A stretch of DNA of 64,000 bases, from NCBI RefSeq assembly GCF_011043775.1, contig NZ_JAAKXY010000003.1, positions 372,001 to 436,000 on the forward strand, written 5' to 3'. Positions 19,302-33,703 of the stretch are shown here, in pieces. The notes beneath the pieces are model-generated. The model did not search any database. It saw nothing but the letters and a program-made list of their open reading frames with translations, and was not told the origin of the DNA. The position numbers and the translations under genes are program-made. Positions within the stretch are counted from its first letter, which is position 1, and every line of letters begins with the position of its first letter. Origin of the DNA: Natronolimnobius sp. AArcel1. GTDB taxonomy: Archaea > Halobacteriota > Halobacteria > Halobacteriales > Natrialbaceae.

Positions 19302-19869
19302 AGTAAATCCCGCTCTATATTGGAGCTACTACACAATACAATTCCAACCCTGAAAAGGATACCGGTCATTGCACAGTAATCAAACAATTGTCGAGTATGA
19401 CAGCCACAAATATGCTTGATTTCTACCTATTTCAGACCTGTTGAGCGATTATCGATAGCTCGGCCTACTACAGTATTGTCTTCCTCATGCCGTTGTTCAC
19501 GAACAGGTATACTCTGTGTACCCCTCGTTCAATCACACCGGTTTCGAAACCCTGATTTGAGCGATAGTAGCCACTGACAGTCAGTACACACCTACTCGTA
19601 CGATGGCTGTGCGAATAGTGGCAAACAGTTTCAGTTGTTACTATAACTCCGTCGTGTGCGTCACCCGCTGCAGTTTCCAGTCATGTTCGCTCACAGTGCA
19701 TCTGCTTTCCAGTCGCTGATCGTGTATTCATACGCGCTGGGTGTTCCGGCCACTGATCGAGACGTCGCCACTCACCCTCCGATTACGTTCCGAGATGGAG
19801 TTACGTTCGCAGGTCCCAACCCGTTCAGGCAACGAATTTAAGCGTGTTCCGACAATAATCTTGTGTATT
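19302..19869. other. 568-bp intergenic region between divergent sulfur genes
   Basis: It separates the tusA-dsrE pair from the rhodanese-MBL gene. No protein or RNA gene is recognised. It holds the hairpin element at 19564-19645 and, at its right end, the promoter of the rhodanese-MBL gene (tttaag near 19837-19842, about 28 bases before the ATG at 19870). The left part (19302-19560) is A/T-richer than average. Confidence 0.6.
19564..19645. repeat. Hairpin element, copy 1 (82 bp)
   Basis: It begins atagtagccactga and ends tcagttgttactata; the two ends pair imperfectly (TAGTAGCCACTGA against TAGTAACAACTGA). The inner sequence is degenerate. Its ends and length match the copy at 33234-33317, which has a much better preserved stem. 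This looks like a small non-coding mobile or palindromic element. Confidence 0.65.
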
Positions 19870-31884: not shown

Positions 31885-32353
31885 GCCATTCGAAGGGCCG
31901 TTCCGACCTTGCTTAAATCCTGCCAGTTTCCACTCGCGAGCGGAATCCATCGACGTGCATGAACTTCGGTGAGGAAACTGTCGAGACACCAATTCACCGA
32001 TCCATTGATTTCTGCCGAATCAAAACCATGCGACGGGTGAACGCGCCCAGTCGTGAAAGTTTGTCCACAAGGTACACTGATGAGGACTCGAATCAACAAT
32101 TTTTCTGCGAAGTCTATCGTGCCGTTTGACACCGACGCTCGCGCTAGCGCGTCGAATCACACACGAAAGACCATCCAGATTTCGAGCAGCTGTCGCCCCG
32201 ACCGAAGGGTTTGACTCGAGTGCGCCCATAGACGTGACTGAACCGCGCGATGGGGGCGACTCGAGGCCGCTCCCGTCCGGTCGGTACGCGACCGCTCGGC
32301 TCTCCCCATCCGATGTCACATCCGTCTCACCACCACTCGGAGGCTGGCCCGCG
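31885..32353. other. Region between divergent sucC and the prenyltransferase gene
   Basis: The left end holds the sucC TATA element (cttaaat, 31912-31918; atttaag on the coding strand). The frame of the prenyltransferase is open from a TTG at 32126, but residues before 32354 are Arg/Pro/Ser-rich and unlike the family. A GTG at 32234 with gtttgac about 24 bases upstream is a second candidate start. No other gene is seen. Confidence 0.45.
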
Positions 32354-33223
32354 GTGACGACCACGCACGCACAGTCACGAGCGCGGCGCTGGCGTTCGTC
32401 ACTCGAGGCGTTCTGTCGTGTGCTGGTCCACAGCAACCTCTTTATTTCGCTGGCGACGATGAGCGTCGTCGTCACGACGGTCGTGCTGGCGGACCTGCCA
32501 CTCGAGCCGATTCCGCTGTTTATCGTCTTCGCTGCGACGCTGTTCGTCTACACCGTCAACCGATTCACCGATCTCGAGGAAGACGAGGTAAATGTCCCTG
32601 ATCGGGCAGCATTCACGAAACGCTACGGGCGGCTGTTGTTGGGAATTGGCGTCTGCTGTTATCTCGGCACGATTGGCGTTGCGGTCGTCCTGGGGGTTCC
32701 AGGGGCGATCTATCTGCTGTTGCCACTCGTCGCCGCGGTGTTGTACTCCATTGGCGGCATCAAACGACTCCTGCTCGTGAAGAACCTCTTCGTCGGCGTC
32801 GCCTGGGGGCTGCTCCCCCTGGGAGCCGGCTACTACTACGACAGCCTCTGGACGCCTGAAATCCTGTTTCTCGCGGGCTACATCACCGCGATGATCACGA
32901 TTGCAGCGGTCGTTTTCGACATCAAAGACATCGAGGGCGACCGCGCGGAAGGGATTGCAACGGTGCCGAACACGGTTGGCGTCCCCCGAACGCGGCGACT
33001 CGCACAGGCTGGCACTCTCGTGGTTGCAGCGGCGGTCATCGCCGTCGTTGCACTGACGACGCTCTCGAGTGCGTTACTCGTTGTCCTCGCGATGAACGTC
33101 TACGTCGCCTGTTACATTCCCTTTGCGACCGCCGAGCGCGGGCCGCTGTTCTACGGCTTCGTTATCGACGGTGAGCACGTCTTTCTCGCGGCGGTCGTCA
33201 TCGTATTCGAGTTACTCGGGTGA
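32354..33223 (+). CDS. UbiA-family prenyltransferase
   Basis: A 289-residue membrane protein with about eight or nine helices and the two Asp-rich motifs of UbiA enzymes: NRFTDLEEDEVN near residue 62 and DIKDIEGDRAEG near residue 190, which bind Mg-prenyl diphosphate. It transfers an isoprenoid chain to an acceptor; the acceptor (quinone, haem, lipid or other) cannot be told. The GTG at 32354 (MTTTHAQSRARRWRSSLEAF) is chosen because the family usually begins shortly before the first helix; 32234 is an alternative. Confidence 0.82.
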   Translation: MTTTHAQSRARRWRSSLEAFCRVLVHSNLFISLATMSVVVTTVVLADLPLEPIPLFIVFAATLFVYTVNRFTDLEEDEVNVPDRAAFTKRYGRLLLGIGVCCYLGTIGVAVVLGVPGAIYLLLPLVAAVLYSIGGIKRLLLVKNLFVGVAWGLLPLGAGYYYDSLWTPEILFLAGYITAMITIAAVVFDIKDIEGDRAEGIATVPNTVGVPRTRRLAQAGTLVVAAAVIAVVALTTLSSALLVVLAMNVYVACYIPFATAERGPLFYGFVIDGEHVFLAAVVIVFELLG

Positions 33224-33233
33224 GAACAGCAGT

Positions 33234-33317
33234 TATAGTAGCCACTGCAAGTCATTGCACACCTGATCGCCAGACAGGTCGGCGATCAGTGTGTAAATAG
33301 GTGCAGTTGTTACTATA
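33234..33317. repeat. Hairpin element, copy 2 (84 bp, well-paired)
   Basis: The ends are tatagtagccactgca and tgcagttgttactata. The reverse complement of the right arm matches the left arm across about 37 positions with few mismatches, including the inner cores CACACCTGATCGCC / GGCGATCAGTGTG flanking a short loop (agacaggtc). It lies ten bases after the prenyltransferase stop and before a convergent gene. The ends and length match copy 1 at 19564-19645. Confidence 0.8.
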
Positions 33318-33327
33318 GTGGTACCTC

Positions 33328-33555
33328 TTAGTCTCGGTCCGTCTCGGCCCAGTCACACTCCTGGCACTTCCAGCCAGTGACTAACTCCGTGACTGAGGGC
33401 ATGTACGTGACCTCGAGGATATCGCCCCCACAGTCGGGACAGTCCCGATTGGGTTCGCTGATCGAGTCGACTTCCATGATGCTGTCGCCTTCGATCAGTT
33501 CCGCGAGTTTCTGTGCTGTGACCATTCGCCCCTGAACGACGCGATTCTCGCTCAC
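33328..33555 (-). CDS. Small zinc-ribbon protein (DUF5795-like)
   Basis: A 75-residue protein: an N-terminal part MSENRVVQGRMVTAQKLAELIEGD, then a treble-clef zinc ribbon with CPDCGGD (about residues 46-52) and WKCQECDWAE (about 65-74). Such proteins are conserved in haloarchaea and probably bind zinc and nucleic acid or protein; no function is known. The GTG at 33555 is chosen because the family begins with this segment and an A/T box (rc aatagttag, about 33580-33588) lies about 28 bases upstream. Confidence 0.78.
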   Translation of the reverse strand: MSENRVVQGRMVTAQKLAELIEGDSIMEVDSISEPNRDCPDCGGDILEVTYMPSVTELVTGWKCQECDWAETDRD

Positions 33556-33703
33556 GCGTCTCTCTCCGGCCGCAAGCACCCTAACTATTGTGAGGGCAGA
33601 AATACTCACGCGTCAAATGGCAACTCTTGGGTACCCACAAACTATCGGTCCGGCCTGTAGCTGCGGGCACAATGGTATAGGGTATCTCGTACGTACGTCA
33701 TGT

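Follow-up and report, generated by a model that had tools for sequence, protein, structure and literature searches.

The question raised by this locus is what an 84-bp hairpin is doing between two convergent genes. Within the window, the 64,000-nucleotide stretch of DNA that was analysed, the hairpin occupies positions 33234 to 33317 of the forward strand, exactly where the preliminary description had placed it. It begins 10 bases past the stop codon (33221-33223) of a UbiA-family prenyltransferase gene taken from the ORF list (32342-33223, forward strand; Pfam PF01040, E 1.3e-20), which may instead start at an in-frame TTG further upstream, at 32126, and it is followed by a convergent DUF5795 gene (33328-33609, reverse strand; Pfam PF19108, E 1.4e-41), so the gene context first reported is also correct. 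The sequence runs from TATAGTAGCCACTG to CAGTTGTTACTATA and is self-complementary across almost the whole 84 bp. Its RNA fold is one long stem of -43.4 kcal/mol, compared with -19.9 +/- 2.9 kcal/mol for shuffled versions (z -8.1), and none of 200 shuffles folded as well as the native sequence. The left terminal inverted repeat, TATAGTAGCCACTG (33234-33247, forward strand), is a G-type end and the right one, which reads inward as TATAGTAACAACTG (33304-33317, reverse strand), is an A-type end; the outermost TA of each is presumed to be one of the two duplicates of a TA target. A search of the region against Rfam gave no match.

The guess that two copies in the window meant many in the genome was borne out. 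With the hairpin as query, BLAST found at least 50 copies in the host genome, that of a Natrialbaceae haloarchaeon (50 matches were listed), and a pattern made from the 30-base head had 15 exact matches there, against none for the reversed control; 61 candidate spans were extracted, including some overlapping or neighbouring pairs. The second copy in the window, announced at 19564 with the same ends and length, does exist, but it is an 83-bp copy with one base deleted (19563-19645, forward strand, same orientation as the first), whose left end has decayed to GATAGTA instead of beginning with TATAGTA. By chance, 0.36 matches to the terminal 13-mer would be expected in the window, against the two copies seen. 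The predominant form has a length of exactly 84 bp, too short to hold a transposase gene, and is non-coding; the 83-bp form is rarer, and some copies are longer (151, 158, 214 and 220 bp), with additional GC-rich DNA in the apical loop and both outer arms intact. Three genomes (the host, the sister species G001 and Natrialba magadii pNMAG01) supplied 71 distinct copies of 84 bp. These, among them the copy at 33234, which is full length and belongs to the TG subfamily, could be aligned without gaps over 84 columns, and their terminal inverted repeats have fixed, near-invariant ends.

The search asked for in related genomes was positive as well. The repeat was found in 27 of 61 relatives, chiefly of the same family; a sample of 242 Halobacteria genomes had it in 68, covering four families of the order. 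Among haloarchaeal plasmids, 44 records hold 162 places that match it, and the named plasmids bearing copies include those of Natrialba magadii, Natronorubrum, Natrinema, Halomontanus, Haloarcula hispanica and Halomicrobium; the phages and viral contigs searched had zero copies. In the host genome three copies lie within about 1 kb (G000:C2:153000-155200; L016, L189), and in the sister species a mere 90 bp correspond to the segment of about 2.9 kb that holds this triple. On pNMAG01, a lone TATAGTAGCCACTG end at L239:6935, with an unrelated interior and no partner nearby, is possibly the end of another element.

We then asked whether the copies had been inserted where they now stand. The sister species is collinear with the host on both sides of the 33234 copy and has a short unrelated gap instead of the element. 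In all 45 haloarchaeal prenyltransferase loci compared, the element was absent at the equivalent position; Halobiforma, Salinadaptatus and three species of Natrialba have the prenyltransferase gene immediately next to the DUF5795 gene. The clearest case is the host copy at G000:C1:767570, which splits an aminotransferase class V gene (G000:C1:766745-767942). The two halves read through only after removal of 82 bp, which restores a 372-amino-acid protein (PF00266, E 1.3e-48) that aligns without gaps to the G001 protein, and the gene is uninterrupted at the insertion point in 11 of 11 relatives aligned. For a further copy, at G000:C1:799625, the gap differs by about 82 bp from that of G001, with flanks too diverged for a base-exact reading; excision tests on other copies yielded no second clear interrupted gene. 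Other genes related to the disrupted aminotransferase are intact in the host genome. The 84-bp element is thus real and mobile, and its insertion is directly demonstrated. The preliminary description had named two outcomes that would speak against a mobile element, namely the lack of further copies and the conservation of this one in place as a plain terminator, and neither occurred.

The flanks of 89 copies reveal the preferred target. A purine stands at -2 in 68 of them, C at -1 in 48, G at +1 in 65 and a pyrimidine at +2 in 54, giving the consensus RC-[TA]-GY, which is palindromic about its central TA; there is a slight asymmetry in that G at +1 is commoner than C at -1. C and G together on the two sides occur in 29 of the 89 copies, compared with 1.6-2.5% of background TA dinucleotides (p about 1e-24 or less). 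No direct repeats outside the element were found beyond the terminal TA/TATA. These flanks, together with the net gain of 82 bp, fit the duplication of a TA by the MITE, as is usual in IS630/Tc1-mariner transposition. The check on target duplications that had been proposed is favourable in length and in flanks, but it is ambiguous as to the bases present before insertion in the interrupted gene: a plain TA duplication implies TTA, and the relatives carry TGG at that place, which leaves the ancestral bases in doubt.

A search for the DDE_3 domain across the family returned many IS630-type loci, from which we took the subgroup with matching ends. This is a 1,059-bp IS630-family element with ends TATAGTAACCGTTAGAA and TATAGTAGTCGTTAGAA, to be compared with TATAGTAACAACTG and TATAGTAGCCACTG in the MITE; the outer 8-9 bases are common to both at both ends. 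At position 8, 9 of 18 copies of the IS have A at one end and G at the other, as does the MITE, and 13 of the 18 matching-end copies have C...G flanks, that is, the same CTAG target. Two reading frames encode its HTH and DDE_3 domains, and in G001 PF13358 (E 5.9e-37) and HTH_33/HTH_32 lie between the shared ends, the domains of an IS630 element. In N. magadii, RefSeq annotates the product as 'IS630-like element ISNamo16 family transposase'. The only DDE_3 gene assembled in the host genome (contig C10, L111) was tried as the helper and rejected on its ends, CTCAGTGTAGCTTCAAG; other haloarchaeal plasmid IS630 elements, with ends CTAGTGTTGCTTCAAG, did not match either.

The IS is nevertheless resident in the host. 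Its end pattern occurs there six times, in every case with a contig end about 125 bases away (G000:C6:484666, C7:141375, C11:111, C1:112, C9:104778 and C16:3459). The left part of the IS (A-type) terminates three contigs and its right part (G-type) three others, at 92-94% identity to the relatives; therefore, at least three ISNamo16-like copies are present, and they broke the assembly. Because the contigs stop inside the IS, the assembly lacks the transposase gene, and searches for genes overlook it. On pNMAG02 of N. magadii, an ISNamo16-like element lies inside an 84-bp MITE, at a CTAG target, and once the IS and a single TA are removed, the remaining 84 bp match the copy at pNMAG01:28420 with 0 mismatches. 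This nested case fixes the register of the TATAGTA end and the TA duplication directly for the IS, and for the MITE by way of the shared ends.

Of the readings first offered for the hairpin, that of a miniature transposable element brings together the multiple copies, the identical termini, the empty orthologous sites, the interrupted gene, the palindromic TA-centred target and the resident IS630 element with matching ends. We consider it very probable that the 84-bp unit is a non-autonomous MITE of the IS630/Tc1-mariner kind, mobilised by the ISNamo16-like transposase. As the two share their ends and the CTAG target, the IS is resident and the nested case exists, the transposase acting in trans is the likely mover, as judged from sequence. 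A full-length ISNamo16-like element (about 1,059 bp) would make the transposase, which would recognise the common ends TATAGTAG.../TATAGTAAC..., excise the 84-bp unit and insert it at a TA, preferably within RCTAGY, with duplication of the TA. The stem is long because almost the entire unit consists of inverted repeat, its pairing presumably maintained by compensatory changes.

The most serious alternative keeps the MITE and changes the helper: the main mobiliser would be another, unseen transposase, belonging either to a divergent subgroup of IS630 or to some other family that targets TA, with ends that match TATAGTAGCCACTG in full, and the outermost bases of the ISNamo16-like elements would be alike through convergence or distant kinship. 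We give this perhaps a minor chance. It draws on the fact that the identity between MITE and IS does not extend past the outer 8-9 bases: further in, where the transposase binds, the ends differ (GTTAGAA in the IS, ACTGCAA in the MITE). MITEs are also common in genomes without ISNamo16-type ends: among 36 Natrialbaceae genomes no association between IS ends and MITE was seen (both in 11, MITE only in 14, IS only in 4, neither in 7), and some MITE-bearing genomes, such as G006 and G036, are without any DDE_3 transposase match. On the other hand, no element with a fuller match appeared among the loci examined, the MITE and the ISNamo16-like elements have the same CTAG target and the same contrast of a G-type with an A-type end, and a lost or unassembled helper would account for the absences. 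Genomes with the MITE and without the IS could hold old copies that persist, could have lost their helper or have it unassembled, or could use another helper.

It seems improbable that the hairpin is instead a bidirectional terminator or 3'-end processing signal retained at gene ends and spreading only incidentally, another of the readings first offered. The strength of the RNA hairpin and the place of the 33234 copy between convergent genes would suit such a role, but 18 copies on pNMAG01 are spread about equally over the types of gap, with 5 between convergent, 7 between tandem and 6 between divergent genes, counted from the PLSDB gene table, which is incomplete; only 3 of the 18 overlap a gene, by 3-33 bases at the gene end. 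Presence in all three types of gap fits a mobile element tolerated between genes and argues against a dedicated terminator, as do the relatives that lack the element at the 33234 site, the empty Rfam search and the copy that disrupts a gene; nor is a TA-centred target a terminator trait.

The compensatory changes in the stem, which would also favour a terminator, deserve attention of their own. Under a structure of 33 pairs, 91.3% of the cells in the alignment pair, compared with 86.6% in shuffles, and double-sided changes number 128 cells against 54 +/- 5 in shuffles and at most 33 in slid controls. The two subfamilies are set apart by base pairs that compensate for each other, TGATCGC/GCGATCA in one and CAATCGC/GCGATTG in the other. 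Since relatedness among copies inflates covariation counts, we read the pairing as kept or copied from arm to arm and not as proof of RNA function, while granting that individual copies may conceivably have a role at the RNA level. Some copies have both ends of the GCCACTG type (L006:1501-1584 and L017:1501-1584) and others have inverted loops, which suggests arm-to-arm copying within a folded strand. We regard as doubtful, although somewhat less so than a terminator, the broader idea that the length and pairing of the hairpin are under selection across genera, either as folded RNA or extruded DNA needed for transposition of the palindrome or for a function at host transcript ends, with the loop hosting other repeats and the stem unbroken.

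That the unit is a REP- or PATE-like palindrome moved by a Y1 (IS200/IS605-type) transposase is very hard to sustain: it is short and palindromic, and PATEs are abundant in Haloquadratum (PMC3119063), but both its ends are inverted repeats matching an IS630 and not an IS605 element, its target is symmetric about TA, and PATEs are without terminal inverted repeats and duplications (PMC3119063).

As an IS630-type MITE family widespread in haloarchaea, the repeat is of an ordinary, well-known kind. The ISNamo16-like IS630 of haloarchaea resembles it in its outer ends, including the G/A difference, in the TA within CTAG and in its presence in the same genome; it differs in being 1,059 bp long, with a two-frame DDE transposase and no interior hairpin. 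Correia elements (Neisseria) and RUP (Streptococcus pneumoniae) have a TA-type target and IS630-related ends. These are short intergenic multicopy MITEs (PMC10969869) of bacteria, differing in lengths and unrelated in sequence, and for Correia elements promoter and RNase III roles are documented, unlike for the 84-bp MITE. Among haloarchaea, SMR-A and the MITEs of Haloquadratum walsbyi are likewise short, transposase-free repeats of about 100 bp, in tens of copies, with prominent terminal inverted repeats (PMC3119063). SMR-A is described as about 110 bp long, with ends unrelated to any known transposon, no target duplication and a preference for PATE palindromes as targets (PMC3119063). This description sets it apart from the present element, which is 84 bp long, has ends matching IS630 and probably duplicates a TA. 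No published description of the 84-bp family was found in the literature searched.

Reading the hairpin as a MITE explains a structure found in tens of copies across the Natrialbaceae and neighbouring haloarchaeal families, copies which in annotations otherwise resemble a terminator or an RNA. In such genomes the helper IS goes unseen where the contigs break off. The link between the repeat and a specific transposase makes the mobilisation of an archaeal MITE testable in a tractable host.

Finally, in the longer forms the outer stem is unbroken and the apical loop holds 67-204 bp of GC-rich DNA with multiple hairpins. They are represented by L050 (G000:C3:185753-185972), L027, L045, L057, L090 and L094, and on pNMAG01 by 176119-176366 and 183703-183990. 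The loop DNA runs CGCGGTTCGGA...GAACCGCG or GCGAAGCGAACGGG...CCCGTGAG, and related DNA also stands alone at L191:6556-6691, downstream of the end of a Gly-Met-rich gene; it appears to be a second family of repeats, which inserts itself into hairpin loops.
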